Shown here piece by piece: positions 49,632-64,000 of a DNA stretch of 64,000 nucleotides. The notes beneath the pieces were generated by a model that was not told the origin of the DNA, searched no databases, and was given only the letters and a program-made list of their open reading frames with translations. The DNA lies in contig NZ_JACSMD010000001.1 of NCBI RefSeq assembly GCF_018618475.1, forward strand, positions 248,001-312,000, in the 5' to 3' direction. Both the position numbers and the translations under genes were made by a program. Within the stretch, counting starts at the first letter, position 1, and every line of letters starts with the position of its first letter. The DNA is from Exiguobacterium sp. s122 (GTDB taxonomy: Bacteria > Bacillota > Bacilli > Exiguobacteriales > Exiguobacteriaceae).

Positions 49632-49702
49632 TGTGATGACTCCTTTCATATTTATATAAGTAAAAGCACACGTGATAGTGATGTTCCTCTTTTGTAGCGA
49701 GA

Positions 49703-49716
49703 AGAAACCGTTTTCT
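49703..49716 (-). promoter_or_regulatory. LacI/cre-like palindrome upstream of the sugar ABC operon
   Basis: AGAAACCGTTTTCT is an imperfect palindrome centred on CG, resembling LacI-family operators and distinct from the CCGAAACGTTTCGG of the maltose promoters. It lies between the kinase terminator and the leader ORF, where the operon promoter must be. A TATAAA at about 49654-49659 (minus strand) may be the -10. Confidence 0.45.
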
Positions 49717-49727
49717 TTTAAATAAAG

Positions 49728-49765
49728 AAAAAACCTTCGCTCATCATTTTTTGATGGACGAAGGT
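49728..49765 (-). terminator. Terminator of the orphan soluble kinase
   Basis: A stem between 49733-49746 and 49752-49765, with one mismatch and a wobble, and six As on the plus strand (49728-49733) forming the T-run on the minus strand. Confidence 0.85.
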
Positions 49766-49768
49766 CAA

Positions 49769-50947
49769 TCATTCGTATACTTCTCGTTCTGGGGGCGGGA
49801 GCGTCTCGGTTACGGACGCCGGATAGAAATAAATCGAGAACGTCGTCCCTTCCCCATACACGGAATCGGCCTGAATGGCCCAACCGTGTGCTTCAGCAAT
49901 ACGCTTACAGATGCGAAGTCCTAATCCCGTCCCTTTAATTGGACGATGGGCATCGGAATCGACGCGATAGTATTCGTCAAAAATATGAGGGAGTGCTTCT
50001 TCCGGAATCCCGATTCCAGAATCTGTAACGGATAAGACGAGCGTACCGTCTTCGTCGGTGACATGAATTTTGATTGTGCCACCGTCGGGGGAGTATTTAA
50101 TGGCATTCCCCATCAGATTATGGATGAGTTGCAACAATTTGTCTTGATCGGCGTTGAGCGTTACATCGTCGTTCGCGGTCAAGACGATGCGATGCTGCAT
50201 GGAAGTCGTGTCGTAACTCGCGACAATCGTTTCGAGCACCGGTTTCAGTTCGAATGTCTCTCGATTGAGGAGCTCTTCTGAATAAGAGACCCGCTGGTAA
50301 TCGAGGAAGTTGTCAACGAGGCGTTCGAGTCGTTCGGCTTCTTGTTTCACGAGCTTCAGCATCGCATGCGTCTTCTCATCATCGGTATGACGATAGGTGA
50401 GCAGTTCGGCATAGCCGGTAATTGCTGTGAGTGGCGTACGGAAGTCGTGCGACAGTTCGGCCAAGAACGCGTCTTTTTGTTCTTCAAAGCGAATCGCTTC
50501 CGTGTCGTCACGCCACATAATGAACACACCCCGTGGTGTCGTCATAAAATTAAAGATCAGTTGCAAAATGCGCTCCCCGACTTGAATGCGTCGGGCGTCC
50601 ATTTGTGGACGCTCGGTGAAGCGTTTGTCGAGCAGCTCTTGCCAGAGAAGTTTGACGACGTCCAGATCCGCACCGTTCTGTTCAAACTTTTCAAGAAAGA
50701 ACGCCGACAGCGCCTCCATGCTACTGAAGCGTCGGGTCGGCATCGACGGACAGAGTTCACGTAAATGATCGTTCGAATAGAGATGATGACATGTGAAGTC
50801 GATATAACAGACAGCATCTTGTGCTTCATTGACAATGGAAGCGATAGGGATGGTTCGAACGGTGGAATGGCGGATGTTACGATGAGATCGTTGTAGATTT
50901 GAATGACCGTGGCGACGGCGTGCCGAAAAGTAAGCCTTTCGTTTCAT
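49769..50947 (-). CDS. Soluble PAS-type sensor histidine kinase, orphan
   Basis: A 392-residue kinase without membrane helices. A very basic N-terminus (about 1-30) is followed by a PAS-like region (about 33-150), HisKA with H167 in AELSHDFRTPLTAITGY, and HATPase (LMGNAIKYSPDGG, VTDSGIGIPEE, GTGLGLRIC). No response regulator is adjacent. A TATAAT on the minus strand (complement of 51048-51053) is the likely -10; the ribosome site GGGAGG is 11 bases from the ATG. Confidence 0.87.
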   Translation of the reverse strand: MKRKAYFSARRRHGHSNLQRSHRNIRHSTVRTIPIASIVNEAQDAVCYIDFTCHHLYSNDHLRELCPSMPTRRFSSMEALSAFFLEKFEQNGADLDVVKLLWQELLDKRFTERPQMDARRIQVGERILQLIFNFMTTPRGVFIMWRDDTEAIRFEEQKDAFLAELSHDFRTPLTAITGYAELLTYRHTDDEKTHAMLKLVKQEAERLERLVDNFLDYQRVSYSEELLNRETFELKPVLETIVASYDTTSMQHRIVLTANDDVTLNADQDKLLQLIHNLMGNAIKYSPDGGTIKIHVTDEDGTLVLSVTDSGIGIPEEALPHIFDEYYRVDSDAHRPIKGTGLGLRICKRIAEAHGWAIQADSVYGEGTTFSIYFYPASVTETLPPPEREVYE

Positions 50948-50985
50948 CGTAAACTTAACCTCCCTTCGTCTTACATTTGAATTTC

Positions 50986-51007
50986 ATCTATAGGTTATCT
51001 ATAGGTT
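50986..51007. repeat. Tandem 11-bp direct repeat upstream of the orphan kinase
   Basis: ATCTATAGGTT occurs twice without a gap (50986-50996 and 50997-51007), one helical turn apart, between the kinase -10 and its start. The rest of 50948-51209 shows no gene. Confidence 0.6.
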
Positions 51008-51209
51008 CAGGAATATGAATACAAAAGATATGTAAATACCTACTCTTATTATACGTTAACTTGTCTAACGCCCATAGCTGACACAAAGTCCTATTGAAAA
51101 CGATGCAAACTTGGGCGGGACAAAGTGAAATGATAAAAAATATATAGAATACATGTTTCAATTCCACCAAATGACCTATGTGAATCGTAAATGGCAGAAA
51201 AATCACACG

Positions 51210-51240
51210 AAAAAACCCCCATCCGATGGAGGATGGGGGG
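51210..51240 (-). terminator. Terminator of the M23 peptidase gene
   Basis: CCCCCATCC (51216-51224) pairs with GGATGGGGG (51231-51239); As before it form the T-run on the minus strand. Confidence 0.95.
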
Positions 51241-51245
51241 AAGGG

Positions 51246-51962
51246 TCAAAAGAAGTTATAAGGGTTAAGGCTATTCGCTGGCGCGCTACTGCTGTAGACG
51301 TACGGCGACTTATGGACTTCGAAGTGAAGGTGGCTACCGAACGAGTTGCCAGTGTTCCCGACCGTTCCGATCGTCGCACCGCGTAAGACGGTCTGTCCTT
51401 GGACGACGTTCAAACGGTCGAGGTGGGCGTAGACGGTCGTATACGACTGACCATTGATTTGATGGGTGATCATAATGTGGTTCCCGTAGGCACCGGCGTT
51501 ACGGGCGACGATGACCTGACCGCCAGAAGCAGCCTGGACCGGTGTACCTTTCGCTGCGGCGAGGTCGATGCCGTTATGGAACGTGTAGCCGTAAATGCCG
51601 CTCGCCGGACCGTACTTTTGCGTCAATGTGCCTTTTGTCGGCATGAGGAGCGTCGCCGCTGACGTCGTTTGGAGCGTCGTGCTCGTGTAAGGCTTAAGGA
51701 ATGAGCTCGAGACGTAGCGAGACGTGCCGTTGTAATTGATTTTTGTCCAGGCGGCCGTCGTGCTTTGAGCCGAGAACGTTTGACCCGTATTGACGGTTGC
51801 GACGACAGGATACGTCGTTCCAGGGCCGGAGCGGACGTTCAAATTGTTCGTCGTCACGACCGCTTTATAGTATGTGGATGCTTCGACCGGTGTCGAGGCA
51901 GGGGTGATTAGACCGATGGTAAGTAGTACGCTTAATGTAATTGTCATTAATTTCTTTTTCAT
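51246..51962 (-). CDS. Secreted SH3b-M23 peptidoglycan endopeptidase
   Basis: A 238-residue exported zinc peptidase. It has a signal peptide (about 1-29, cleavage near VEAS), an SH3b domain (about 31-92, NLNVRSGPGTTYPVV), and an M23 LytM domain (about 105-238) with zinc ligands in FHNGIDLAAA and the HLHFEVH motif, plus VYAHLDRL. It would cut peptide crossbridges in the wall. The ribosome site is weak (AAGGG, 12 bases away). The upstream spacer is very AT-rich. Confidence 0.93.
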   Translation of the reverse strand: MKKKLMTITLSVLLTIGLITPASTPVEASTYYKAVVTTNNLNVRSGPGTTYPVVATVNTGQTFSAQSTTAAWTKINYNGTSRYVSSSFLKPYTSTTLQTTSAATLLMPTKGTLTQKYGPASGIYGYTFHNGIDLAAAKGTPVQAASGGQVIVARNAGAYGNHIMITHQINGQSYTTVYAHLDRLNVVQGQTVLRGATIGTVGNTGNSFGSHLHFEVHKSPYVYSSSAPANSLNPYNFF

Positions 51963-52089
51963 GATTATGTAAATCCCTTCGCTGTTAGAAAGTGGTACAA
52001 TGCGACATTAGCAACCTTATAAAGAAATTTTACCATCAAAAATATAATTTAATATTTCATTTATATTTCAAAAAAATATATTGACATCC

Positions 52090-52123
52090 TAAAAAGAACC
52101 TATCTAACTCGGACAGGTTCTTT
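52090..52123 (-). terminator. Terminator of the ydhK-like gene
   Basis: AAAGAACCTATC (52093-52104) pairs with GACAGGTTCTTT (52112-52123), one wobble; As at 52090-52095 give the minus-strand T-run. Confidence 0.88.
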
Positions 52124-52154
52124 CTGATTGTTTTATAGATTGTGCGACGTTCCT

Positions 52155-52721
52155 TTAGTTTGCAGAAAGCTCGTCTTCCGTCACCCATTTGTGGTTCGTC
52201 ACGCGCTCCCCGCTGTCGAGCTCGAAATCGACCATGTAAACAGTCGTCTCTTCAGCCGAGTCGATTGTGGCAGTGGCACCGCCCATCCCCCTCATATGTT
52301 CAGCATCGACCGTCACTTCGTCACCCGGCTCGTAAGCGTCGGCTTTTGCGTCAACGATCTCTTCGTGAATGATCCATTTATGGTCACGTACGCGTTCACC
52401 GCCATGCATGGGATCATACGAGATGCTATAGACGACTGTATCGTAGGCGCCGACGATGGTCGCCTCGGCTCCCTCCATTCCAGGCATATGTGCCTCCGTG
52501 ATGATTGCTTGATCGCCGACTTTGAACGTCGGGTTTTCAGCTTCTTGGAGATCAGTCGGGACTTCACCAGAACCGGACATGTCCATCTCGCCATGATCCA
52601 TCTCACTCATCGATTCGTTAGGCATGTCGTCCATCGTTTGATCGTTCGTACCGCAAGCGGCGAGTCCGGCGCTTAAGGCAAGCGTCATCGTCAACGCCGT
52701 GATTTTATTGTTTAGTCTCAT
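52155..52721 (-). CDS. YdhK-like DUF1541 lipoprotein, copper-linked
   Basis: A 188-residue lipoprotein (lipobox LAAC, C23). A methionine- and histidine-rich linker (MDDMPNESMSEMDHGEMDM) is followed by two DUF1541 repeats, each with a MxGMxGA and a DHKW or NHKW motif (about 65-120 and 128-183). The Met/His content and the divergent CopB gene suggest copper binding outside the membrane. AGGAGG precedes the ATG. Confidence 0.85.
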   Translation of the reverse strand: MRLNNKITALTMTLALSAGLAACGTNDQTMDDMPNESMSEMDHGEMDMSGSGEVPTDLQEAENPTFKVGDQAIITEAHMPGMEGAEATIVGAYDTVVYSISYDPMHGGERVRDHKWIIHEEIVDAKADAYEPGDEVTVDAEHMRGMGGATATIDSAEETTVYMVDFELDSGERVTNHKWVTEDELSAN

Positions 52722-52865
52722 GTGAATTCCTCCTGCATAAAAAGATTGTCAATCATTTGGTGAAACAAGCTGCACTCCACGTTTAGACACGCATCATTAA
52801 GTGACTGTACTCTCTTTATAGCACTCGTTTATGAAATATTTGTTAAATCAAAAAATTGAGTTTCA

Positions 52866-52883
52866 TATACTGTATAGGGGTAT
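52866..52883 (+). promoter_or_regulatory. Promoter and CsoR-like operator of the CopB gene
   Basis: TATACT (52866-52871) is a plausible -10. It overlaps ATACTGTATAGGGGTAT (52867-52883), whose complement resembles the B. subtilis CsoR site ATACCCTACGGGGGTAT at both ends. CsoR is not encoded in the window. Confidence 0.5.
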
Positions 52884-52906
52884 ATGGTATATAGGAGGTG
52901 ATCGAC

Positions 52907-54913
52907 ATGGACCATCATGACCATATGCATTCTTCTCACAAGGAAGCGGATAGACGTCATTCAGACGAAACCGGTCATGATCACATGATTGGAATGTATA
53001 AACGTCGATTTTATGTATCGCTCGTGTTAACGGTGCCCATTGTCATATTGTCAGACATGATCCAACAGTGGGCGGGATTTGAACTCACATTCGCCTATGA
53101 GAAACCCCTTTTGTTTATCCTATCGACCATTGTTTATCTGTATGGAGGCGGACCGTTCTTGAAAGGAAGCCTCGTTGAATTACGAGATAGAAACCCGGGC
53201 ATGATGCTGTTGATCGGACTCGCCATTAGCGTTGCGTATGTTTATAGCGTGGCCGTCGTCGTTGGATACGGGCATGGGCACGACTTCTTTTGGGAGTTAG
53301 CGACGTTGATTGTCATCATGTTGCTCGGGCATTGGGTAGAGATGAAGTCCGTGATGGGTGCGTCGAATGCACTTCAACAACTTGTCCGACTTCTGCCGAG
53401 CGTAGCCCACCGCGTGAATGATGAAGGTGCTGAAGATATACCAGTGGCAGACGTGAAAGCAGGAGATTTGATTTTAGTTAAACCAGGCGAACAAATCCCG
53501 GTCGACGGGGAAGTGGTCAAAGGACGAACGACCATCGACGAATCAATGCTGACCGGGGAGTCCTTGCCGATTGAGAAAGAACCGGGGCATCCTGTGATTG
53601 CGGGTTCCATCAATCAGGAGGGAAGCGTGACGATTCGGACGACAGGGACGGGTGAAGGGACGTACTTGTCCAAAGTCATTGAGTTGGTACATGAAGCGCA
53701 ACAGTCGAAGTCGCGCACACAAAACCTTGCCAACCGTGCGGCAAAATATCTTTTTTATATCGCAATCGGTGCCGGATTATTCACTTTCTTCGTTTGGATT
53801 GCGCTTGGCTATCCGGTTGGCACTGCCGTCGAGCGGATGGTCACGGTCATGGTCATCTCATGTCCTCATGCACTTGGGTTGGCGGCACCGCTCGTCGTGG
53901 CGGTCTCGACAAGTATATCGGCGAAGCGTGGCCTGCTCATTCGCAATCGCACCCAATTTGAAGAAGCACGTCACTTGGATGCCGTCATTTTCGACAAGAC
54001 GGGAACGTTGACGCAAGGGGATTTTGGTGTGACGGATATCGAATCGATGGCACCTAATACGGAAGAAGACGTGTTACGTTTTGCGGCATCAGTCGAAAGC
54101 GCTTCGCAACATCCGCTCGCGAAAGGCATCGTGCGTGAGGCAACCCATCGATCGTTACCGTTGTTCGAAGTGGACGCGTTCCGTTCCATGACCGGCATCG
54201 GACTTGAAGGCTTCGTGAACGACGAGAAAATCCAAGTCGTCAGCCCTCGCTATATGCGTGATGCTGGAGAACCGCTCCCGGAAGAAACGTTTGAGCGATG
54301 GTCGGCTGCCGGGAAGACGGTTGTGTTTATTTTAAAAGATGACCAATTCATTGGCATGATTGCCTTAGCGGACATCGTGCGCGATGAGGCGCGTGAGACG
54401 ATTCGAGCGTTACACGATCGGGGCATCCGCTCCATCATGTTGACAGGAGACAATGAAAAAGTAGCGAACTGGGTAGCGTCACAGCTTCAAATGGATGAAG
54501 TCTATGCCGAAGTCTTGCCAGACGACAAATCCCGTCAAGTCCAGACGGTTCAAGCCGACGGTAGTAAAGTGGCGATGGTGGGAGATGGAATCAATGATGC
54601 ACCCGCGTTGGCGCAAGCAGACGTCGGCATCGCGATCGGCAGCGGAACCGATGTGGCTGTCGAGACGGCGGATATCGTCCTCGTTCGAAGCAATCCGAAA
54701 GACGTGTTGAACATTCTTGAGCTGTCGCGTCGAACGTATAACAAGATGGTTCAAAACCTTTGGTGGGCAGCAGGATACAACATCCTCGCCATTCCGTTAG
54801 CAGCCGGCGTCCTTGCCCCGTTTGGCATCCTACTGTCACCAGCCATCGGTGCGGTGTTGATGAGTTTGAGCACAATCATCGTGGCGCTCAATGCCCGGAC
54901 GCTTCGAATTTAA
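52907..54913 (+). CDS. copB: CopB-type P1B ATPase, copper export
   Basis: A 668-residue heavy-metal ATPase with a histidine-rich N-tail (MDHHDHMHSSHKEADRRH) in place of a CxxC domain. The membrane motif is SCPHALGLAAP, the CPH form of subgroup P1B-3 (CopB) pumps. TGES, the phosphorylation site DKTGTLTQGD, an HP dipeptide in SQHPLAKGI, and GDGINDAPAL are all present. AGGAGG sets the ATG at 52907; a GTG at 52898 overlaps that site. Copper or silver efflux is expected. Confidence 0.93.
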   Translation: MDHHDHMHSSHKEADRRHSDETGHDHMIGMYKRRFYVSLVLTVPIVILSDMIQQWAGFELTFAYEKPLLFILSTIVYLYGGGPFLKGSLVELRDRNPGMMLLIGLAISVAYVYSVAVVVGYGHGHDFFWELATLIVIMLLGHWVEMKSVMGASNALQQLVRLLPSVAHRVNDEGAEDIPVADVKAGDLILVKPGEQIPVDGEVVKGRTTIDESMLTGESLPIEKEPGHPVIAGSINQEGSVTIRTTGTGEGTYLSKVIELVHEAQQSKSRTQNLANRAAKYLFYIAIGAGLFTFFVWIALGYPVGTAVERMVTVMVISCPHALGLAAPLVVAVSTSISAKRGLLIRNRTQFEEARHLDAVIFDKTGTLTQGDFGVTDIESMAPNTEEDVLRFAASVESASQHPLAKGIVREATHRSLPLFEVDAFRSMTGIGLEGFVNDEKIQVVSPRYMRDAGEPLPEETFERWSAAGKTVVFILKDDQFIGMIALADIVRDEARETIRALHDRGIRSIMLTGDNEKVANWVASQLQMDEVYAEVLPDDKSRQVQTVQADGSKVAMVGDGINDAPALAQADVGIAIGSGTDVAVETADIVLVRSNPKDVLNILELSRRTYNKMVQNLWWAAGYNILAIPLAAGVLAPFGILLSPAIGAVLMSLSTIIVALNARTLRI

Positions 54914-54973
54914 CAATTCTTTCATCTTTAGACGGTACACTGAGAACGATGCTGAAGATGGAGGAAAAAACAC

Positions 54974-55933
54974 ATGAAGAAAACGTTGAGTCTGTCAGTT
55001 CTTTTGGCGACCGTATTATTAACCGCTTGCGCGAGCACGCCTTCGAATGAAATGACACCTGAACCGGAGGCGCCAGAAGCCGAGGTGGAACAAGCGTCAC
55101 CACAAAATGAGACCGACAATTGGCAACAAGTCAAAGCCGACGCGGCGATCACGCACATCCATGGTGCCGGGTTTTGGCAGGAAGATGCCCGTCCAGTCGT
55201 AGCGACGCACCATGGGTTGATGGAGTATCGTGAGGACGGCTGGTATGAGCTCATGTCAAACCGACATGATTATATGGGTTTTGAGCTCGTCGAAGATGGA
55301 TTTTATGCGAGCGGGCACCCTGAACCGCAATCCGCATATAAAAATCCGCTCGGTGTCGTCCGCGGTACCGACCGAGGAGAGACGCTCGAAATCCGCTCGC
55401 TCGAAGGGGAAGCGGATTTTCATCATATGAGCGTGGGGTATCGTTCCGAAAGTCTATACGTCTATCTAGAAGAACCGACAAGTGAGTTACGACCGGGCTT
55501 TTATCGTTCCCTCGACAAAGGTGAGACGTTTGACCCGATGAAGATGGAAGGGACGGCTCGACACGGGATTGCCGGTCTTCTCGCCGACTCCAGTGAACCG
55601 CGACGTGTGTATGTGTACGGTCCGAACGGGATGCTCGTCTCAGATGATGGGGGCGATACGTTCGAAGCATGGATTACAGACGAGCACATCCTTCTTGCCG
55701 CGAAAGACGACACGACACTCGCCTACGTACGCGAAGCGTCTGTTTATAAACTCGTCTTACAAAAGGATGAAGGAGAGACGGTCCTTCCGTTACCTGACTT
55801 AGAAGCGGGAGCGCTCCCGCTTGAACTCGCCATTAAAGAGGGACGTCTCTTACTCGCCACGTCTGACAATAGCGTCTACTTGTATGAAGATGGGGACTGG
55901 GTAACGCTTTTACAAGCAGGAGCAGTACCCTAA
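54974..55933 (+). CDS. BNR-repeat lipoprotein (F510_1955 type)
   Basis: A 319-residue lipoprotein (lipobox LTAC, C19) with an acidic linker (about 24-50) and a beta-propeller-like domain. It carries BNR/Asp-box repeats such as GVVRGTDRGETLE, GFYRSLDKGETFD and LVSDDGGDTFE. Such proteins commonly neighbour CopB and YdhK genes in Firmicutes; the role is unknown. It starts 60 bases after copB with no terminator between, so it is cotranscribed. Confidence 0.8.
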   Translation: MKKTLSLSVLLATVLLTACASTPSNEMTPEPEAPEAEVEQASPQNETDNWQQVKADAAITHIHGAGFWQEDARPVVATHHGLMEYREDGWYELMSNRHDYMGFELVEDGFYASGHPEPQSAYKNPLGVVRGTDRGETLEIRSLEGEADFHHMSVGYRSESLYVYLEEPTSELRPGFYRSLDKGETFDPMKMEGTARHGIAGLLADSSEPRRVYVYGPNGMLVSDDGGDTFEAWITDEHILLAAKDDTTLAYVREASVYKLVLQKDEGETVLPLPDLEAGALPLELAIKEGRLLLATSDNSVYLYEDGDWVTLLQAGAVP

Positions 55934-55958
55934 TCTTTCCATGGGGTGAGTCCATCAT

Positions 55959-56000
55959 AAAAATGAGCCGTTACCTGTAGACAGGCAGCGGCTCATTTTT
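55959..56000. terminator. Bidirectional terminator between the BNR lipoprotein and the CusS-like kinase
   Basis: AAAAATGAGCCG (55959-55970) pairs with CGGCTCATTTTT (55989-56000); inside, CCTGT pairs with ACAGG. The kinase stop lies in the loop side of the stem. Confidence 0.9.
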
Positions 56001-57389
56001 TAGGAGGGGGAGGACGATCGTAAACGTCGTGCCCGAATGATTGGAGGCGACATGTAACGAACCTTCATGATATTGGATAATTTGTTGCGCGATGGCGAGC
56101 CCGAGCCCGCTTCCACCCGTTCGTCTCGAGCGGGACTTCTCGACGCGATAGAGACGTTCGAAGATATATGGTACGTCTTCTTCAGGGATACCTCTACCGT
56201 CATCCCGGATGGTGAATAGAATCGTGTCTTGTTTCAAAGTGCCATCGAGAGTGACATGGGTCGCCCCGCTATGCTCGATGGCATTATGCCCGAGCGCACG
56301 GAACACTTGGATGATTCGATTATGGTCGATGCAAAGCGGCACATCGGCCATATTCGCAAGGCGACTCTCGAACGTGATCGGGGTGACACGAAACATGGAG
56401 GTGAGGACACGGGTCAAATCAACACATAGTTCTGAAACCATGATGTCCTCCTTATGGAGTGTGAACGTGTTCTCGTCAAGTTGAGCGAGCTGAAACGCAT
56501 TCTCGACGAGTTCCGTTAACGCTTGGCTCTCCTCTAAAATCGTTTGAATCGATTGCTCCTTCAGTGCGATGGGTGTTTGAGGTTTGGATGCAATCTCGGC
56601 GTACCCTTGTAAATACGTGAGTGGTGTTTTGATCTCGTGGGCGAGATTGGAAAGAAATTGATTGCGCTCATTTTTTAAACGCACCAGCTCGAGCGACATC
56701 GATTCAATGGAGCGGGCGAGTTCCCCGATCTCATCGACACGTGACGTCGGGAGGGTGAGCTGATCCGGTCGCGTCAACACGTTCTCGGTCGCTCGGCGAA
56801 GTTGCTGAATCGGATTCGAAATGAGTCGACTGAGCAAGAGGAACGTCAATGCCGTGACGATGAGCGCGATAGCGGTGATGTACAGGAAGCGAACCTGTAA
56901 GCGGTGGCTGATGCCGTGGATGATTTCGGTCGGTAGGAACATGTACACATAGCCATACCGTGTCGCCCCATCCATCGACTCGATCGGCGTCCGAACGGCA
57001 AGATACGGCTTGTTTTCCCAGTCCGTCTCGAGCACGACTGTTTCATCGAGCGTAGTCGGATTAGAAACGTCACCGATGAACCCTGACAAGACGTCCGGGA
57101 AGCGATTGGATGTGTCGAGTACCGTCTGATCCGGTGCGACGATGGCGACTTTCGTGTCGGTTTCGCTTTCCATCGTCGCGACATGCGAAATCGTCTCTTC
57201 GTCAAAACTCATCGCCAGTACACTCGCGTGGCTTTCTGCCCGTGACTCGAGCCGGTCCATCTCCTCGACGACCCGCTCCCCGAGCAACGTGTGATACAAA
57301 AGGATGAACAAGACGCTTTCAATGAGTAATGTCGTCAATAGAAAGACGAGACTGATTCGAAACGGGAGACTATTTCGCCAAGGCATCAT
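55971..57389 (-). CDS. Membrane sensor histidine kinase of the copper-region pair
   Basis: A 472-residue kinase. It has membrane helices at about 11-33 and 168-188 around an extracellular domain, HAMP (about 189-242), HisKA with H251 in NLAHEIKTPLTYL, and HATPase (LGHNAIEHSG, RDDGRGIPEED, GGSGLGLAIA). The ATG at 57389 overlaps the regulator stop (ATGA). The location suggests metal or envelope stress sensing, but the extracellular part lacks the Met/His motifs expected of a copper sensor. Confidence 0.88.
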   Translation of the reverse strand: MMPWRNSLPFRISLVFLLTTLLIESVLFILLYHTLLGERVVEEMDRLESRAESHASVLAMSFDEETISHVATMESETDTKVAIVAPDQTVLDTSNRFPDVLSGFIGDVSNPTTLDETVVLETDWENKPYLAVRTPIESMDGATRYGYVYMFLPTEIIHGISHRLQVRFLYITAIALIVTALTFLLLSRLISNPIQQLRRATENVLTRPDQLTLPTSRVDEIGELARSIESMSLELVRLKNERNQFLSNLAHEIKTPLTYLQGYAEIASKPQTPIALKEQSIQTILEESQALTELVENAFQLAQLDENTFTLHKEDIMVSELCVDLTRVLTSMFRVTPITFESRLANMADVPLCIDHNRIIQVFRALGHNAIEHSGATHVTLDGTLKQDTILFTIRDDGRGIPEEDVPYIFERLYRVEKSRSRRTGGSGLGLAIAQQIIQYHEGSLHVASNHSGTTFTIVLPLLKNEPLPVYR

Positions 57390-58063
57390 GATGGATCCCT
57401 CCCCTCGACCCAGCGGTATCCCCGTCCCCACACGGTCTTCAAATAATCATCGATCGGAAAACCAGCCTCCCCGAGCTTATCCCGAATCATGCGGATATGA
57501 GCGTCGACGGTCCGGGGATCGGATTCTGAAGAGTACGGCCAGACGAGGTCGTACAAATCCATGCGATGATACAAACGGTTCGGATGCTCGAGAAACAATT
57601 TTAAAATCGCCGTCGCTTTTGGAGTTAGGACGACTTCTTGTTCCTCATAGAGCACACGGCCGCTCGGTTCGTCATATCGCAGCGGACCATAGCTGACGTT
57701 CGTGAGTCGGCTACGGCGTAACACGGCACGAATCCGGGCGAGTAAGACGTTCCCATCGAACGGTTTCGTCACATAGTCATCGGCCCCGGCGTCTAAGCCG
57801 CGAATCGTCGTTTCACTGTCGGACCGCGCCGTCAATAAGACGACGGGTAAGTCCGCATCTCGCTTTTTCAGTTGACGACAGAAGGTGATGCCGTCCACGT
57901 CCGGCATCATAATATCCAATAAGACTAAGTCAGGACGTTCGGCCATGAGTTCAAGCGCTTCGGCCGCGTCGCTCGCCTCGAGACACGTATAACCGTCGCC
58001 TTCGAGAAAGAGTCGCAACAGGCGGCGCATCTTCATCTCGTCATCCACAATTAGTATCTTCAT
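57386..58063 (-). CDS. OmpR-family response regulator of the pair
   Basis: A 225-residue regulator: receiver domain with D7/D8, phospho-acceptor D50 in LVLLDIMMPD and the KPFD lysine, then an OmpR winged helix (about 128-222, DPRTVDAHIRMIRDKLG and TVWGRGYRW). The ATG at 58063 follows AAGGAGGGAGGG; in-frame codons further upstream overlap the preceding gene. It is downstream of, and 23 bases from, the MurE-like gene. Confidence 0.93.
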   Translation of the reverse strand: MKILIVDDEMKMRRLLRLFLEGDGYTCLEASDAAEALELMAERPDLVLLDIMMPDVDGITFCRQLKKRDADLPVVLLTARSDSETTIRGLDAGADDYVTKPFDGNVLLARIRAVLRRSRLTNVSYGPLRYDEPSGRVLYEEQEVVLTPKATAILKLFLEHPNRLYHRMDLYDLVWPYSSESDPRTVDAHIRMIRDKLGEAGFPIDDYLKTVWGRGYRWVEGRDPS

Positions 58064-58086
58064 GCATTCCCTCCCTCCTTTTCTTC

Positions 58087-59571
58087 TCAACCTTCAGTTC
58101 GTGATGCATCTCCAGGTTCCCTTTCGTTTGGGTAGAAACGATGGATGAGGGCAGGTTCGTCACACGGAATCAATTCGCCGTCGATACGTTCGATTCGATC
58201 ATGTCCTTTTCCGAAAATGACGCCACAGTCATAGTTCGGAAGCTGTTCGGCGAACGCACGGATGGCGTCGTGCCGTGTTGGATGAACGGACAGCGGAGGG
58301 AGGGCAGACTGACCGAGCGCTAAATCGTCAAGAATCTGTTGTGGGGCCTCGCCTCTCGGATCGTGGACCGATAAAATATAGTCCGCTCCCGACTGTGAAA
58401 CAATCTCTGTCATCCCGCTCCGCTTTGAGCGGTCCCGCTCTCCGGCGGCACTGAGCAGGACGAGGACGCGGGTATGACGTTCGGTCAACACTGTGACAAC
58501 TTTCTGAATCGCATCTGGCGTATGCCCGTAGTCGACATAGGCGAGGGAAGCGATTCCTTCGATTCGTTCGAGCCTTCCGCTCGGCAAGCGAAGAGAGGCA
58601 AGATGCGGTGCGGCGTTTTCAAGCGACACTCCGGTCGCGAGGACGATTCCGAGCGCGCACAGCAGGTTGTCGAGGTTGTACGTCTCTTTGAACGGAGGTA
58701 TGACGGCAATGAATTGTCCTTTCGTACTAATTGACAATCGATCGCGGTCAAGTTGTCTAAACAAATCAGCAGAAGCGTCGTGTCGACTGTAGTAGCTTCG
58801 TTTCACGTCGCCAGGTGTCGCGCTGTCCATCTGTACATGGAACGGGTCATCTCTGTTAAAGAAGACATGGCCGTTCGTCTTCACTTGTTGGAATAGGCGT
58901 GCTTTCGTCTCCGCGTAGGATTCTATCGACCCGTGATAGTCGAGATGATCCTGGGTCAGGTTCAGAAAAGATGCCGATTGAAAAGAAAGTCCAGTGATTC
59001 GGGATTCAGCGATTGCCTGAGAGGAGACTTCAATCACGCAGTCGGTGATTCCCGCTTTAACCATTTCATTTAGATGACGGTTGACGGTCAACGGGTCGGG
59101 TGTCGTGTTCGGTGTCGTAAACGTCTGACCGGCGTATTGAATCCCAAGCGTTCCGACCCACCCGGCTTTCATCCCGAGAGCTGTGAAGAGTTGATATGCA
59201 AGCGAGGTCGTCGTCGTTTTCCCGTTCGTCCCCGTGACCCCGTGTACACGTAAACGTTTAGAAGGCTCGTCATAAAACGTCGCCGCGAGCTCGGCCAAAG
59301 CGATTTTGGTATCTCGACAATAAATGACGGGTATAGGCGCATCGATTGGTCGTTCCGCGACGATGGCGATGGCTCCGTTTGCGATGGCTTCATCGATGAA
59401 GTTGTGTCCGTCATGCCGGTGTCCGGTTATGCAGACGAATAAATAATTTTTTTTTATTTTTTTCGAGGAGAAAGCAATCCCTTCGATGAACGTTTCATTC
59501 GAACGTTCCAAATACGTCCACGTGACAATCTGGCTTAGCCTTGCCATAAAGTGTTGTAAAGTGTTAAGCAC
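58087..59571 (-). CDS. MurE-like Mur ligase
   Basis: A 494-residue ATP-dependent amino-acid ligase of the UDP-MurNAc-dipeptide type, cytoplasmic. The N-terminal UDP-binding domain (about 1-90), P-loop VTGTNGKTTTTSL, TTPDPLTVNRHLNEM, and LDYHGSIESYAETKARLF are clear MurE traits. In the amino-acid selecting loop, DNPR is replaced by HDPRGEAP: the arginine remains but the aspartate and asparagine are changed. GTG at 59571 follows AAAGGAG by eight bases; the ATG at 59601 precedes it. A TATACT (complement of 59608-59613) is the likely -10. It is cotranscribed with the two-component genes and is not in a cell-division cluster, so it may be a second MurE. Confidence 0.82.
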   Translation of the reverse strand: MLNTLQHFMARLSQIVTWTYLERSNETFIEGIAFSSKKIKKNYLFVCITGHRHDGHNFIDEAIANGAIAIVAERPIDAPIPVIYCRDTKIALAELAATFYDEPSKRLRVHGVTGTNGKTTTTSLAYQLFTALGMKAGWVGTLGIQYAGQTFTTPNTTPDPLTVNRHLNEMVKAGITDCVIEVSSQAIAESRITGLSFQSASFLNLTQDHLDYHGSIESYAETKARLFQQVKTNGHVFFNRDDPFHVQMDSATPGDVKRSYYSRHDASADLFRQLDRDRLSISTKGQFIAVIPPFKETYNLDNLLCALGIVLATGVSLENAAPHLASLRLPSGRLERIEGIASLAYVDYGHTPDAIQKVVTVLTERHTRVLVLLSAAGERDRSKRSGMTEIVSQSGADYILSVHDPRGEAPQQILDDLALGQSALPPLSVHPTRHDAIRAFAEQLPNYDCGVIFGKGHDRIERIDGELIPCDEPALIHRFYPNEREPGDASRTEG

Positions 59572-59727
59572 GAGGCGTTCTCCTTTTTCTAGTAAGTCCA
59601 TTTTGACAGTATAGCCGTCGTTTGTGAAAAAGAAGTGAAATCGAAGAAACGTAAAAATAGCTCATGTTTTTGATTCAGAAACAGTGGAAACATAGTGTTA
59701 ACCATACAAAACAAAGGAGGAATCCAT

Positions 59728-60231
59728 TTGAATCCATACGTAAAATTTGGGGTCATGATTGGCGTCTCAACGTTTCTCATGTATTGGCTCATGTATTTGA
59801 ACGTGTTTCAGCTCGACCACATCCTTTTCAGTCAAACACGACTTTACATGGCACTGATTATGGGATCGGTCATGGCATTCGTCATGATGCTTTTTATGTG
59901 GGGGATGTACAAAAATAAGAGACAGAACGCAGTCATTTTAGGGGTTAGCGCAATCGTATTTGCCGTCTCGCTTTGGCTCGTCCGGAGTCAGACGACGGTC
60001 GACGACGTCAGTTGGATGAAAGCGATGATTCCACATCACTCGATTGCGATTTTAACGAGTGAACGAGCGGAAATTGAAGATCCGCGTGTGAAACAACTAT
60101 CAGAAGAAATCATCCATGCGCAAGAACGGGAAATTGCCGAGATGAAGCGATTGATTGAAGAGTTGGAAAAAGAAGAGGGAACAGCTAAAGCAGATGTGCA
60201 AGTGCCTACTAAGGCGGATAGGAGCGAATAA
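59728..60231 (+). CDS. DUF305 membrane protein
   Basis: A 167-residue protein with three predicted helices (about 8-27, 34-57, 64-82) and a soluble C-terminal DUF305 helical domain, with the motif WMKAMIPHHSIAI (about 94-106) that binds metal in related proteins. The start is TTG at 59728, seven bases after AAAGGAGG; no ATG is correctly placed. DUF305 proteins are often linked to copper resistance, in line with the neighbours. Confidence 0.85.
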   Translation: MNPYVKFGVMIGVSTFLMYWLMYLNVFQLDHILFSQTRLYMALIMGSVMAFVMMLFMWGMYKNKRQNAVILGVSAIVFAVSLWLVRSQTTVDDVSWMKAMIPHHSIAILTSERAEIEDPRVKQLSEEIIHAQEREIAEMKRLIEELEKEEGTAKADVQVPTKADRSE

Positions 60232-60260
60232 GGGGGACCTATACATTATGTTTTTATCAG

Positions 60261-60294
60261 AAAGCCGTCGGTCATAAATGGACCGACGGCTTTT
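60261..60294 (+). terminator. Terminator after the DUF305 gene
   Basis: AAAGCCGTCGGTC (60261-60273) pairs with GACCGACGGCTTT (60281-60293), seven-base loop, short T tail. Confidence 0.9.
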
Positions 60295-60372
60295 CGTGTA
60301 TTGGTACGCGAAGAAAACGTAAAGTAAGATGAACTTTCTTCAACAATCGACACGTTCTTGATTATACGTTAC

Positions 60373-60546
60373 TTAACGAACTTGTGGCATGTCGTCACGC
60401 GAACGGCGATTTGACAAGTATGGTGTGATTGCGAAACCGATACCAAGCAATGAACCGACGACAAGTCCGATCATACTATCGGTCAAGAGCATGAATACAA
60501 TGCCGAACATGAATCCGATACTTATATCTCCAATCCGGTCAAACAT
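60373..60546 (-). CDS. 57-residue small membrane protein downstream of terC
   Basis: The protein begins MFDRIGDISIGFMFGIVF and ends SNRRSRDDMPQVR, with two hydrophobic stretches (about 9-22 and 25-42) and a charged C-terminus. AGGTGG is six bases before the ATG. It starts 44 bases after the terC stop with no terminator between, so it is probably cotranscribed. No family is recognised. Confidence 0.7.
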   Translation of the reverse strand: MFDRIGDISIGFMFGIVFMLLTDSMIGLVVGSLLGIGFAITPYLSNRRSRDDMPQVR

Positions 60547-60590
60547 GTTGCACCACCTTTTTTCATAGACGAAACCATTACAACTGAACG

Positions 60591-61526
60591 TTAACTCGTC
60601 TCTCTTTTACGCATGCTTCCCTCGTTAGGTTTCGTTTTATAAAAACTATAGACGACACTGATCAGAATCACGACGATGATCACACCGAGTGACATCCAGT
60701 TCGGCATCTTGTACACATCCCCGAATACCATCTTCGTTCCGATGAAGACAAGCATGAAACTGAGTCCGTGTTTCAAATAGTAGAAGCGGTCAATCAAGTT
60801 GGCGAGGACGAAATAGAGGCTACGGAGTCCGAGAATCGCCATGATGTTCGCGTAGAAGATGATATACGGGTCACGCGAGTACGCGAAGCTAGCGGCGACC
60901 GAATCGACGGCGAAGACGATATCCGACAGCTCGATGAAAAGGAGCGCGATGAAGAGTGGTGTGAAAAATAGCTTTCCGCCTAGGCGCTTCACAAACTTAC
61001 CCGAAGAGATGTCTTGTGTGAGCGGCAAGCGACGTTCGAGCCAGCGAATCGTCTTGTTCGCTTCGAGCGACTCCTCCTTCCCGATGTTCTTGTACATCAT
61101 CCACCCGGTATAGACGAGGAAGGCACCGAACACGTAATAGACCCAACTAAAGTTCTCCAAAAGCGACACACCGGCGACGATGAAGACGGCTCGGAAGAAA
61201 ATCGCGCCGAGGATGCCCCAAAACAACACCTTGTGCTGGTATTTGAGCGGGATGGCGAAGTAGGCGAAGACGAGCGAAAATACGAACACGTTGTCAATCG
61301 CGAGCGCTTTCTCGATAAAGTAGACGCTTGCGTACTCGGTCGCGACCGCGCTCCCTTGCGAGTAGAACAACCAACCGCCGAAGGCGATGGCAATCCCGAT
61401 CCAGACGAACGTCCACGTCCATGCCTCGCGCATGGACACCTCGTGGGCTTTTCGGTGAAATACACCTAAATCAAGTGCGAGCATCACGACAACGAGCAGT
61501 AAAAACCCAATGAGTAGGGTCAACAA
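60591..61526 (-). CDS. terC: TerC-family membrane protein
   Basis: A 311-residue integral membrane protein with about nine helices and the TerC signatures EKALAIDNVFVFSLVF, KVLFWGILGAIFFRA and ELSDIVFAVDSVAASFA, whose acidic residues bind metal in the membrane. Relatives export manganese and help metallate secreted enzymes. The start is TTG: 61526 or the next codon 61523, both served by AGGAGG. No yybP-ykoY manganese riboswitch is seen; a palindromic operator lies in the promoter instead. Confidence 0.88.
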   Translation of the reverse strand: MLTLLIGFLLLVVVMLALDLGVFHRKAHEVSMREAWTWTFVWIGIAIAFGGWLFYSQGSAVATEYASVYFIEKALAIDNVFVFSLVFAYFAIPLKYQHKVLFWGILGAIFFRAVFIVAGVSLLENFSWVYYVFGAFLVYTGWMMYKNIGKEESLEANKTIRWLERRLPLTQDISSGKFVKRLGGKLFFTPLFIALLFIELSDIVFAVDSVAASFAYSRDPYIIFYANIMAILGLRSLYFVLANLIDRFYYLKHGLSFMLVFIGTKMVFGDVYKMPNWMSLGVIIVVILISVVYSFYKTKPNEGSMRKRETS

Positions 61527-61542
61527 CTATTCCTCCTTTTAA

Positions 61543-61554
61543 GTTCAAATGAAC
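61543..61554 (-). promoter_or_regulatory. Second palindromic operator in the terC leader
   Basis: GTTCAAATGAAC is a perfect 12-base inverted repeat that matches the core of the promoter operator at 61569-61590. It lies between the transcription start and the ribosome site. Confidence 0.65.
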
Positions 61555-61566
61555 CTCTATATCATT

Positions 61567-61595
61567 AATTTAAGTTCATTTGAACTTAAAGTCAA
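61567..61595 (-). promoter_or_regulatory. terC promoter with palindromic operator in the spacer
   Basis: On the minus strand TTGACT (complement of 61590-61595) and TAAATT (complement of 61567-61572) are 17 bases apart. The spacer is filled by an inverted repeat with perfect 10-base arms, TTTAAGTTCA (61569-61578) and TGAACTTAAA (61581-61590). Confidence 0.8.
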
Positions 61596-61618
61596 GTGTC
61601 GAATGTCATTTCATCATT

Positions 61619-61648
61619 TTGACAGGAGGAACGCACGAGCGGTATGCT
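61619..61648 (+). promoter_or_regulatory. Promoter of the HAD gene or of a small RNA
   Basis: TTGACA (61619-61624) and TATGCT (61643-61648) are 18 bases apart. The transcript would start near 61655, only about 85 bases before the terminator below. Confidence 0.5.
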
Positions 61649-61692
61649 GGAAACGAACCGCATATCGTTAGGATTGTTACTGACTTGCAGGC

Positions 61693-61740
61693 AAAACCTA
61701 AATCTGGCGCATCCATTGCGTCTGGTTTAGGTTTTTCTTT
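61693..61740 (+). terminator. Leader terminator before the HAD gene
   Basis: AAAACCTAAA (61693-61702) pairs with TTTAGGTTTT (61726-61735), with an inner GGCGCA/TGCGTC stem, then a T-rich run. No gene precedes it on this strand, so it ends a short leader or a small RNA. Confidence 0.7.
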
Positions 61741-61765
61741 TTTTACAGGGAAGGGGAGATAAAGT

Positions 61766-62602
61766 ATGCAAAAAATCATCTTTTTAGACGTCGATGGCAC
61801 ACTCGTCGATGAACACGGGAATATCCCGGAATCAGCTAAGGAAGCCGTTCAAAAAGCCAGACAAAACGGCCACCTCGTCTTCTTGTCGACGGGGCGCTCG
61901 AAAGCGGAACTGTTCCCGGACATACTCGATGTCGGCTTCGACGGCATTATCGGGGCAGCTGGTGGCTATATCGAGCTTGAAGAGGATATCTTGTTTCATC
62001 AACACGTATCGACCGAGGATTTAACCCATCTCGTCTCGTTCTTTACGGAACATGGCATCGATTTCTATCTCGAATCGAACGACGGTCTGTACGCCGGTGG
62101 AAATGCGAAAGCACGGATCGCACAACTGATCGAGGACTTGATGACGAGCAACCCGGAAGCGAGTGCGACGATTGAACGGGGCTTGAAACCGTTCCATGAC
62201 GCGATGAAGGAAGGGGTTGACCTCGTCCGTCCGAACGTCAACAAAATCTCGTTTCTCGGTTCATCAATTCCGCTTAATGTCATCCAAAGCGAGTTCGCTT
62301 CTCGATTTACCGTCATCCCGAGTACCGTTGCCGTGTTTGGCGCCAACAGCGGCGAGCTGTCCATTCCAGGCATCAACAAGGCGACGGCGATTGCAACGCT
62401 GCTTGAACATCTAGGGCTCGAGCGATCGCAGACGTTTGCCTACGGAGACGGGTTGAACGACATCGAGATGCTCGAGTATGTCGAGATCGGTGTCGCGATG
62501 GGGAACGCCAAACCCGAGGTGAAACGGGTCGCGGACGACGTGACCGACGCTTGTGAAGCGGACGGGCTCGCCAATAGTTTTGAAAAATACGGACTCATAT
62601 AA
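61766..62602 (+). CDS. HAD-superfamily Cof-type sugar phosphatase
   Basis: A 278-residue HAD-IIB hydrolase. Motif I is FLDVDGTLVDEHG, motif II LSTGRSK, the C2 cap spans about 85-190, and motif IV is AYGDGLNDIEML. Members dephosphorylate sugar phosphates or related metabolites; the substrate is unknown. GGGGAG precedes the ATG. Confidence 0.9.
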   Translation: MQKIIFLDVDGTLVDEHGNIPESAKEAVQKARQNGHLVFLSTGRSKAELFPDILDVGFDGIIGAAGGYIELEEDILFHQHVSTEDLTHLVSFFTEHGIDFYLESNDGLYAGGNAKARIAQLIEDLMTSNPEASATIERGLKPFHDAMKEGVDLVRPNVNKISFLGSSIPLNVIQSEFASRFTVIPSTVAVFGANSGELSIPGINKATAIATLLEHLGLERSQTFAYGDGLNDIEMLEYVEIGVAMGNAKPEVKRVADDVTDACEADGLANSFEKYGLI

Positions 62603-62641
62603 AAAAGCCAAGGAACCGGTCGTTAGGTTCCTTGGCTTTTT
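62602..62641. terminator. Bidirectional terminator between the HAD and Rrf2 genes
   Basis: A perfect 16-bp stem (62602-62617 with 62626-62641), eight-base loop, A-run and T-run at the ends. Confidence 0.95.
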
Positions 62642-63057
62642 GTGGCGACGTCTTGGACGATATCGGCGAGCGTCACATGCTTCAATACTGATTCCATCGC
62701 CGATTGGGCGTGAATAAAAATCGGTTCAATCGTCGTTTGGATATGTTGACCGACAGGACATGCCGGATTCGGATTGTCATGGATGCTGAACAACTCGTTC
62801 TCCTCGACGACGTTGACGGCTTGATACACATCATATAGTGAGATTTCGGTCAATTCTTTCGTCAGTTTGGCGCCGGCGACGCCGGGTTTCACTTCAATCA
62901 AGTCGGCCTTCTTCAACATGGCCATGATTTTACGGATTAAGGCAGGGTTCGTATTAACGCTCCCGGCTAAATAATCAGACGAGGTGACGCCGTCCTTGTT
63001 GAACTCGATTAACGTCAAGATATGAATGCCAACTGCGAAACGGCTACTAATTGACAT
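62623..63057 (-). CDS. Rrf2-family transcriptional regulator
   Basis: A 144-residue winged-helix regulator (helix-turn-helix about 25-60, VTSSDYLAGSVNTNPALIRKIMAML). It has a single cysteine, C100 in NPACPVG, where iron-sulfur Rrf2 proteins have three, so a [2Fe-2S] cluster is unlikely and a thiol switch is possible. AAGGTGG precedes the ATG. It diverges from the oxidoreductase gene and the shared spacer holds three matching operators, so it probably represses both. Confidence 0.88.
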   Translation of the reverse strand: MSISSRFAVGIHILTLIEFNKDGVTSSDYLAGSVNTNPALIRKIMAMLKKADLIEVKPGVAGAKLTKELTEISLYDVYQAVNVVEENELFSIHDNPNPACPVGQHIQTTIEPIFIHAQSAMESVLKHVTLADIVQDVATKSQGT

Positions 63058-63082
63058 AAGCCACCACCTTTCTGAACTGTCG

Positions 63083-63101
63083 TGTAAGCGAATTGGTTAC
63101 A
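63083..63101. promoter_or_regulatory. Operator 1 on the Rrf2 side
   Basis: TGTAAGCGAATTGGTTACA, 19 bases, TGTAA-N9-TTACA. It lies just downstream of the Rrf2 transcription start, in the position for autorepression. Confidence 0.7.
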
Positions 63102-63106
63102 TCTTC

Positions 63107-63134
63107 AGTATAACAGGGAACAAACAATTGACAA
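63107..63134 (-). promoter_or_regulatory. Promoter of the Rrf2 gene
   Basis: On the minus strand TTGTCA (complement of 63129-63134) and TATACT (complement of 63107-63112) are 16 bases apart. Its -35 overlaps the -35 of the divergent promoter. Confidence 0.75.
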
Positions 63135-63156
63135 ACGAAGATGCTGTAACTATGAT
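63128..63156 (+). promoter_or_regulatory. Promoter of the quinone-reductase-like gene
   Basis: TTGACA (63128-63133) and TATGAT (63151-63156) are 17 bases apart, a near-consensus promoter whose -10 lies inside operator 2. Confidence 0.85.
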
Positions 63157-63182
63157 GATTACATGTAACTGATTTGATTACA
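63145..63182. promoter_or_regulatory. Tandem operators 2 and 3
   Basis: TGTAACTATGATGATTACA (63145-63163) and TGTAACTGATTTGATTACA (63164-63182) abut head to tail. Both share TGTAAC-N7-ATTACA and cover the -10 and the transcription start. Confidence 0.8.
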
Positions 63183-63204
63183 GGTTAAAGGGAGGAAATA
63201 AATC

Positions 63205-64000
63205 ATGAAATATTTAGTCACAGGGGCGACCGGGAAACTCGGTTCGAAGATTGTCGATTTCTTGCTTGAATCCGTACCGGCAAGTGAAGTGGCCGTCAGC
63301 GTCCGCAACCTAGAGAAAGCGTCACTATTGAAAGAAAAAGGCGTCGATGTGCGTCATGGCGACTTTGACAAGCCGGAGACGCTCGAAGCGGCGTTCAAAG
63401 GGGTCGAGCGACTTCTCATCATCTCAGCAGACGGGGACAACGAGACGCGGATTCGTCAACATGCGAACGCGGTCGAAGCCGCAGAGACAGCAGGGGTCAA
63501 GTTCATCGCCTATACGAGTCTCGCGGATGCCCAGCAGAGTCAGAACTTGATGGCACCGCCGCACGTCGAGACGGAAGGCGCCATCGAACGGACGGGAATC
63601 AAGCATGCGTTTCTACGCAACAACTGGTACTTAGAGAACGAACTCGGGAGCATCCAAGGCGTCCTTGCCGGCGCACCTTGGGTGACGGCGGCACGTGATG
63701 GGAAAGTCGGATGGGCGCTCCAACGAGATTATGCGGAAGCGGCGGCAAACGTCCTCATGTCGGATGACTTCGATCAAGAAATCTTCGAACTCTCCGGTCC
63801 GCTCCACACGCAAACCGAGCTTGTCGAGGCGCTCAGCGAAGTCCTTGGGCGAGACGTCGCACTCCAAGAAGTGAGTGCCGAGGCCTACGGTGACATCATG
63901 CGCGGTGCGGGCGTGCCGGAAGGGGCGATCCCCATCGTCGTCGGCATTCAAGACAGCATTCGCAACGGGTCGCTTGAAGTCGAGTCGAACGACTTTGAAT
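63205..64000 (+). CDS. NmrA/QorB-like NAD(P)H:quinone oxidoreductase, 3' end beyond window
   Basis: The first 265 residues are visible; homologues have about 285. The Rossmann motif LVTGATGKLGSKIV starts at residue 4. SVRNLEKASLLKEKG, HGDFDKPETLEAAFKGVERLLI and KFIAYTSLAD fit the QorB/YtfG group of atypical SDR proteins, which lack a standard YxxxK. It would reduce quinones with NADPH in the cytoplasm. GGGAGG precedes the ATG. Regulation by the divergent Rrf2 protein is likely. Confidence 0.87.
   Translation, partial: MKYLVTGATGKLGSKIVDFLLESVPASEVAVSVRNLEKASLLKEKGVDVRHGDFDKPETLEAAFKGVERLLIISADGDNETRIRQHANAVEAAETAGVKFIAYTSLADAQQSQNLMAPPHVETEGAIERTGIKHAFLRNNWYLENELGSIQGVLAGAPWVTAARDGKVGWALQRDYAEAAANVLMSDDFDQEIFELSGPLHTQTELVEALSEVLGRDVALQEVSAEAYGDIMRGAGVPEGAIPIVVGIQDSIRNGSLEVESNDFE

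Follow-up and report, generated by a model that had tools for sequence, protein, structure and literature searches.

A MurE-type ligase and its stand-alone N-domain in a predicted two-component operon at a copper-type locus of Exiguobacterium

Our analysis concerns a stretch of 64,000 nucleotides from Exiguobacterium sp. s122 (contig NZ_JACSMD010000001.1 of assembly GCF_018618475.1, positions 248,001 to 312,000), hereafter referred to as the window, in which a gene encoding a MurE-type Mur ligase, termed MurE-4, is located directly ahead of a two-component system and amid genes of a copper-type locus. We propose, with confidence and doubt in about equal measure, that a copper-type two-component regulon has recruited a MurE isoenzyme whose N-terminal domain (N-domain) has a second, non-catalytic role. 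This proposal builds on features established by computation, which are the paralogy of the enzyme, the layout of its operon, the operator sequence shared with neighbouring genes, the conservation of the arrangement and the selection acting on a stand-alone version of the N-domain. It would connect wall synthesis, through one of its essential cytoplasmic reactions, with a defence regulon of copper type by way of an operator that is amenable to testing.

The MurE-4 operon and its operator

The gene of MurE-4 (58087..59571, minus strand) codes for a protein of 494 residues with the loop HDPRGEAP and a GKGHD motif. It starts with the GTG at 59571, which is preceded by AAAAAGGAG, and its stop codon comprises positions 58087-58089. 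A longer frame starting from the ATG at 59601 is less likely, given that distant orthologs, for instance the one of genome G005, do not have this ATG in frame. A gap of 23 bases, which contains the sequence AAGGAGG, separates the gene from the ATG at 58063 of an OmpR/PhoB-type response regulator of 225 residues (57386..58063, minus strand), whose stop codon overlaps with the ATG of a membrane sensor histidine kinase containing HAMP, HisKA and HATPase domains (55971..57389, minus strand). Together, the three genes constitute a predicted operon with murE-4 in first position. A preliminary description of the region, made from its sequence, had placed a MurE-like ligase 23 bases ahead of an OmpR-type regulator and its kinase, which is borne out by these coordinates and by the match of MurE-4 to the murE model TIGR01085 with 380 bits at a cut-off of 257. 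The N, middle and C domains of Mur ligases, as defined in Pfam, are all present, as are the sequences GTNGKT, EVSS, DHLDYH, the lysine of ETK, NxxN, GRLE and DYGHTPD. We take the P-loop lysine, the position of the carbamylated lysine, EVSS, NxxN, GR and the aspartate of DYxHTPD to be the catalytic motifs of MurE.

Ahead of the operon, at a distance of 36 nucleotides from the GTG, we find a candidate operator with a -10 box (TTTCAC-N5-TTTCAC-N10-TATACT, 59608..59640, minus strand). Sites of the same type are located 32 nucleotides ahead of the gene of an F510_1955-family protein (TTTAAC-N5-TTTCAT-N10-TACACT, 54909..54941, plus strand) and 93 nucleotides ahead of the gene of a YdhK/DUF1541 lipoprotein (TTTAAC-N5-TTTCAT-N10-TATAAA, 52815..52847, minus strand). 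The composite pattern TTTMACNNNNNTTTCAY-N10-TAYAMW, which combines the 11-bp direct repeats with the -10 box, has three exact matches in the genome of 2,983,338 bases, all of them at these positions, in addition to one site with one mismatch and six with two, compared to six sites at up to two mismatches for the reversed pattern. Within the window, the three composite sites found at up to two mismatches contrast with an expectation of 0.05, and none of 100 shuffled sequences contained three. Only the pattern including the -10 box discriminates; the looser TTTCAC-N5-TTTCAC at up to two mismatches is encountered nine times in the window versus 8.4 times by chance. No composite site directly precedes the ATPase gene of the locus.

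The same organization is found throughout the genus, for which 19 genomes were compared. At up to one mismatch, these genomes contain 63 composite sites, 45 of which reside in the locus, and a site is found ahead of this operon in 17 of the 19. In the two exceptions, the contig ends before the site (G016) or no match of the kinase is obtained at E 1e-60 (G006). Ahead of either MurE-4 or its short form, the sequence TTTCAC-N5-TTTCAC followed by 10 bases and a -10-like box is present in 16 of 16 uncut loci. We thus regard the regulon as well supported by sequence, with the regulator as the protein that would bind these operators. MurE-4 itself exceeds the family cut-off in 10 genomes, in one of them frameshifted, and is cut by the contig end in an eleventh (G016). 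Wherever both sides are assembled, it is situated between the gene of a DUF305 protein and the regulator, and its orthologs occupy the same place behind the same operator at 59-92% protein identity. This retention of place and operator, as well as the purifying selection on full-length and stand-alone forms, is difficult to reconcile with a fortuitous operon, in which a duplicated murE would have landed before the regulator and been carried along without any role in metal stress. Even though murE-4 is absent or broken in several species, as such an origin would predict, we consider it highly improbable.

MurE paralogs and the stand-alone N-domain

MurE-4 being the only murE of the genome was named in the preliminary description as a finding that would refute its interpretation, but four proteins of this genome score above the TIGR01085 cut-off. 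Six bases after MurE-1 (C1:1534.7 kb), a FemAB-family gene begins, and the two (L001 220-2970) look like a unit for the third residue of the wall peptide and the interpeptide bridge. A MurE-FemX fusion, as hinted by open frames of 921 residues, was discarded since two separate frames are found in the five loci inspected. MurE-2 (C1:81 kb) has no recognised wall gene adjoining, and MurE-3 is encoded on C17, a contig of 107 kb rich in metal genes that is probably a plasmid. The primary murE had been expected in the dcw cluster, where none is present: the cluster reads PBP-murF-mraY-murD-murG-divIB-ftsA-ftsZ (with gene names read off translations and the penicillin-binding protein, PBP, assigned by PF00905), with MurE-1 beside the FemAB-family gene and MurE-2 elsewhere. 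In the genus, MurE-1 and MurE-2 are each found in all 19 genomes and MurE-3 in two. The sister genus of the family shows a match at MurE-2 level in 18 of 19 genomes, with the best match in the remaining one (G348) being at the level of MurE-1, which defines MurE-2 as a near-universal second MurE with an HDxR loop. A tree built from 143 rows places MurE-4 as sister to MurE-2 of both genera with an SH-aLRT support of 99, and its stem is longer (1.09 versus 0.42 changes per column for MurE-2, obtained with a quick tree method that flagged long branches). By its sequence, MurE-4 can be described as a fast-evolving sister of MurE-2.

This relationship bears on the substrate loop, which the preliminary description had singled out as altered. 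The HDPRGEAP sequence is real, and HDPR and GKGHD are invariant in all nine MurE-4 rows, but a loop of the HDxR kind is not special to this protein. MurE-2 carries HDVR, HDAR, HDPR or HDTR in 45 of 45 rows and GKGHD in 35 of 45, whereas the loop reads DDPR in 17 of 18 MurE-1 rows (with one unread). Among 79 other MurE rows, 65 contain DNPR, five DDLN and none HDxR, with nine not cleanly read. These counts include duplicate rows, and the reading by regular expression failed in 6 of 20 MurE-4, 2 of 6 MurE-3, 1 of 18 MurE-1 and 9 of 79 other rows. Since HDxR is common to MurE-2 and MurE-4, the loop marks a lineage and cannot alone mark a stress enzyme. Neither the DNPR loop associated with diaminopimelic acid (DAP), nor a DDPR-type loop, nor GKGHE is found in the nine MurE-4 rows, although the arginine of DNPR is retained in HDPR. 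The MurE of T. maritima, which carries DDPR, efficiently uses DAP in vitro despite a wall that is almost free of it (PMC9434261).

The catalytic motifs are intact in nine of nine unbroken MurE-4 orthologs, and for the four listed pairs whose dS is below 1, the ratio of non-synonymous to synonymous substitutions (dN/dS) in the catalytic domains is 0.07-0.27. The intact motifs are compatible with a pure isoenzyme, where a copper-induced spare MurE sustains the supply of precursors or alters the third residue and where the N-domain found in other species is a slowly decaying remnant. The same explanation would gain from MurE-3, a separate MurE lineage encoded on plasmids with metal genes, whose motifs are likewise intact and whose gene has that of a D,D-carboxypeptidase as neighbour both on C17 and in Paenibacillus. 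It is at odds with the abundance of cysteines, six in the MurE-4 of the window compared to two in MurE-1, which does not resemble copper-proofing, and a function confined to catalysis leaves the six species that contain the N-domain only without explanation.

In these six of the 19 genomes (G003, G004, G008, G010, G012 and G017), a MurE N-terminal domain of 112 residues occupies the position of MurE-4 and is preceded by the same operator. The stand-alone proteins match the N-domains of MurE-4 with a mean of 93 bits compared to 41 for MurE-2. The gene, which has kept its promoter and ribosome site, is in frame and intact in five of the six species, and the domain is under purifying selection, with a dN/dS of 0.04-0.15 in 15 pairs at dS values up to 1.05, compared to 0.02-0.07 for the regulator genes of the same genomes. 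The structure predicted for one of these proteins is that of a Mur N-domain (predicted local distance difference test score, pLDDT, of 85.5; predicted template modelling score, pTM, of 0.78), and a Foldseek search with this model recovers MurE and MurF chains with TMq values of up to 0.72. The glycine and DGH motif, which presumably forms the pocket for the uridine diphosphate (UDP) moiety, is altered in the stand-alone domains (G to P, D to R and H to V in five of five rows), while 21 full-length rows show little or no variation at the three positions. A second role of the N-domain best accounts for the fact that selection has retained it in the absence of the catalytic domains. The decaying remnant of the pure isoenzyme finds a counterpart in G010, where the stand-alone gene is already broken, and is contradicted by the selection and the preserved expression signals in the other species, so that we judge this explanation possible but considerably less probable than the recruitment of an isoenzyme with a dual-role N-domain.

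The N-domain is also distinguished within the full-length proteins, where its identity (80.7%) exceeds that of the middle (68.6%) and C-terminal (73.1%) domains. All 36 MurE-4 pairs show higher conservation in the N-domain than in the middle domain, compared to 1 of 36 in MurE-1 and 8 of 36 for MurE-2 across the family. A cysteine at position 86 in N-domain numbering is found in all 14 rows of MurE-4 and stand-alone domains and is replaced by V, L or I in all 75 other MurE rows (duplicates included), whereas Cys48 is common to MurE-4, MurE-2 and some others. These two invariant cysteines, one unique to the MurE-4 lineage, perhaps constitute a putative Cu(I) site. Such a site would suit a protein dedicated to signalling, where ligase activity is lost or irrelevant and where the N-domain modulates kinase or regulator upon binding of Cu(I) or a wall precursor. 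The position of MurE-4 or its N-domain as first operon gene in 16 of 16 uncut loci, the six species without catalytic domains and the best solved fold match of the stand-alone domain, which is the MurE-like chain of the plastid RNA polymerase (PAP11) followed by MurF and MurE, all point in this direction, with plant MurE being described as acting in plastid gene expression (PMC9434261). We still regard an exclusively signalling protein as unlikely, given that the full-length genes keep their catalytic motifs and that their catalytic domains are under purifying selection, while the plastid match may merely reflect shared Mur ancestry. The broader idea that the N-domain reports copper or precursor status to the kinase or regulator, and that one clade has pared the enzyme down to this domain, spans the exclusively signalling protein and the version of our preferred reading in which signalling is the second role, and it is in our view a tentative and rather doubtful one.

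Genomic context and the proposed role

The operon is embedded between copper-type genes, as claimed in the preliminary description. On one side, these encode the DUF1541 lipoprotein of YdhK/CopL type, identified by its domain match (52155..52721, minus strand), a copper-type P1B ATPase resembling CopB (52898..54913, plus strand; TIGR01511 with 643 bits at a cut-off of 397) and the F510_1955-family protein (54974..55933, plus strand; 202.7 bits at a cut-off of 175). On the other side, a CopM-like DUF305 protein (59695..60231, plus strand) is divergent from murE-4; it exceeds the Pfam cut-off (41 versus 27 bits) and remains below that of the NCBIfam CopM model (44 of 90 bits). Proteins of both DUF305 and DUF1541 type have been described in copper resistance (PMC4335983; PMC5947656). 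The OmpR-type regulator and the HAMP/HisKA kinase thus adjoin genes for copper efflux and binding, and the extracytoplasmic part of the kinase contains an H...H..ME pattern common to kinases adjoining plasmid metal genes. ATPase, F510_1955 protein, kinase, regulator and DUF305 protein are syntenic in related genomes, and since these keep the same gene order, a chance arrangement of the locus is untenable. The suggested link between the ligase, the two-component system and the copper genes is likewise upheld by the predicted operon and by the operator type that it has in common with two neighbouring genes.

Some features of the locus vary. The interval 52722-52897 of the window lacks a multicopper-oxidase-like gene, which G002 contains between YdhK and the ATPase and which is there preceded by the YdhK-side operator; because this gene is missing, the operator in the window directly precedes YdhK. 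An M23 endopeptidase gene (51246-51962 in the window) lies close to the copper genes in 15 of the 17 loci retrieved for the genus, on opposite sides in two clades, and has a relative on C17. In the regulator of G012 (L087 9300-9959), ILIVKKEEK is found in place of the ILIVDDEEK of its relatives, reflecting either a replacement of the acidic pair of the phosphorylation pocket or a sequence error. In G015 (L080), a frameshift in murE-4 coincides with no ATPase gene being found in the 19 kb examined. There was no match to Rfam in 49000-64000, and promoter-like and terminator-like scans gave counts at chance level.

Relatives of MurE-3 are encoded on plasmids of Planococcus, Peribacillus, Cytobacillus and Paenibacillus, and in five of five records opened among 40 listed, metal genes are found within 9 kb (a count made without a plasmid control). 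Several of these records also contain wall genes, encoding D,D-carboxypeptidase, PBP2, SpoIIP, MreB and Lgt. On C17 (L068) and on the chromosome of G002 (L094 7625-13031), a cluster of CcdA-ResA-YdhK-MurE3-DacA-VTT is flanked by transposase genes. The plasmid-like contig and the chromosome of the other species encode MurE-3 and DacA with 99% identity, which implies recent transfer. Scanning the regions ahead of plasmid genes for 11-bp repeats plus a -10 box gave no site before MurE-3. Visual inspection yielded a different element, CTGCACA-N5-TCRAMA, whose two exact matches genome-wide are located on C17, one ahead of an F510_1955-family gene and one ahead of MurE-3, and both recur in a P. glaciei plasmid. 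In the chromosomal island of G002, the MurE-3 site recurs and the other is present with no F510_1955-family gene found there. Allowing one mismatch raises the genome-wide count to 10, compared to nine for the reversed control. These sites weakly suggest, as a lead, that MurE-3 may belong to a plasmid metal regulon with its own shared operator.

In the mechanism that we favour, the kinase would sense a metal or envelope signal outside the membrane and the regulator would bind the 11-bp-spaced direct repeats, which are located in the -35 region of three promoters. As a consequence, the DUF1541 lipoprotein (in relatives together with the multicopper oxidase), the F510_1955 protein and the own operon including MurE-4 would be co-induced. 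MurE-4, presumably a neofunctionalised sister of MurE-2, would in its full-length form probably still act as a ligase that adds the third residue onto UDP-MurNAc-dipeptide in metal stress. Its N-domain would have a second role, most likely a protein contact or the sensing of a ligand tied to the regulon, which would be all that remains in the six species with the stand-alone domain.

Several observations weigh against this reading. Copper as the signal is itself inferred, and among the best 25 matches for each, regulator and kinase are below every NCBIfam cut-off, including those of the copper models cztR_silR_copR (125 of 279 bits for the regulator) and cztS_silS_copS (146 of 293 bits for the kinase). 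The composite pattern was defined after its three sites had been seen, and the evidence therefore consists of its concentration in the locus and its conservation; 18 of the 63 sites in the genus are outside the locus, compared to eight sites for the reversed control pattern. The gene is dispensable, because in G010 the stand-alone version contains a nonsense codon, in G015 a frameshift interrupts murE-4 around residue 50, in G001 regulator and kinase are present but no MurE is recognisable (the operator and the regulator are separated by just a short open frame that looks N-domain-like by eye), and G006 yields no kinase match at E 1e-60. Within the genus, MurE-2 shows the same tendency in less pronounced form, with an N-domain better conserved than the middle domain for 54 of 66 pairs (87.9 versus 84.5%). 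Finally, with preset marker proteins and flanks of up to 10 kb, metal markers are found at 1 of 14 chromosomal MurE-3 loci (the 14 best of 80) compared to 1 of the 66 others serving as control (Fisher p 0.32); CzcD-like and ArsR-like genes seen by eye in L099 are outside the marker set and were not counted. As a family, MurE-3 is not a metal enzyme, and its metal link rests on the plasmid copies.

The plasmids contain a second, distant MurE lineage carried along with metal genes. If functional, the stand-alone domain would clearly exemplify how, in nature, a biosynthetic enzyme can be retained solely for the sake of one non-catalytic domain encoded next to a sensor kinase, and the effect of copper on the supply of wall precursors would become a directly testable question. 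The interpretation of the preliminary description, an envelope response to metal that involves a second MurE, is in our view partly supported; its further suggestions, an altered third residue of the wall peptide or the recycling of tripeptide, would be conjectural, with the arginine of DNPR being retained.

Comparison with known systems

None of the titles listed by our searches of open-access literature concerns a copper regulon that includes a MurE, and the main text of a genus-wide paper (PMC13233415) does not contain the term 'mure'. In its three domains, P-loop and other motifs, MurE-4 resembles known MurE ligases (TIGR01085; T. maritima 4bub, E. coli 1e8c and S. aureus 4c12), with the T. 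maritima enzyme as best match among single-function MurE chains. It differs in carrying HDPR for DNPR/DDPR, GKGHD for GKGHE and SSQ for SSH, and in being part of a two-component operon instead of residing among wall genes.

The copMRS system of Synechocystis, with the DUF305 protein CopM and the pair CopRS, likewise combines regulator and kinase with a DUF305 protein and has a leading gene that precedes the pair in its operon (PMC4335983). In the locus described here, this leading gene encodes a MurE ligase, the DUF305 gene is divergent and the exporter is a P-type ATPase and not of the RND type. Both protein types of copXL from S. aureus, a P1B ATPase and the DUF1541 lipoprotein CopL, are present as well (PMC5947656), although copXL is under the control of CsoR and the locus in Exiguobacterium contains operator repeats and a two-component system. 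Finally, PAP11 of the plant plastid RNA polymerase provides a precedent for a MurE relative outside wall synthesis that is tied to transcription, plant MurE having a role in plastid gene expression (PMC9434261). While PAP11 is a full-length subunit of the polymerase, the bacterial stand-alone gene encodes a single domain beside a sensor kinase.

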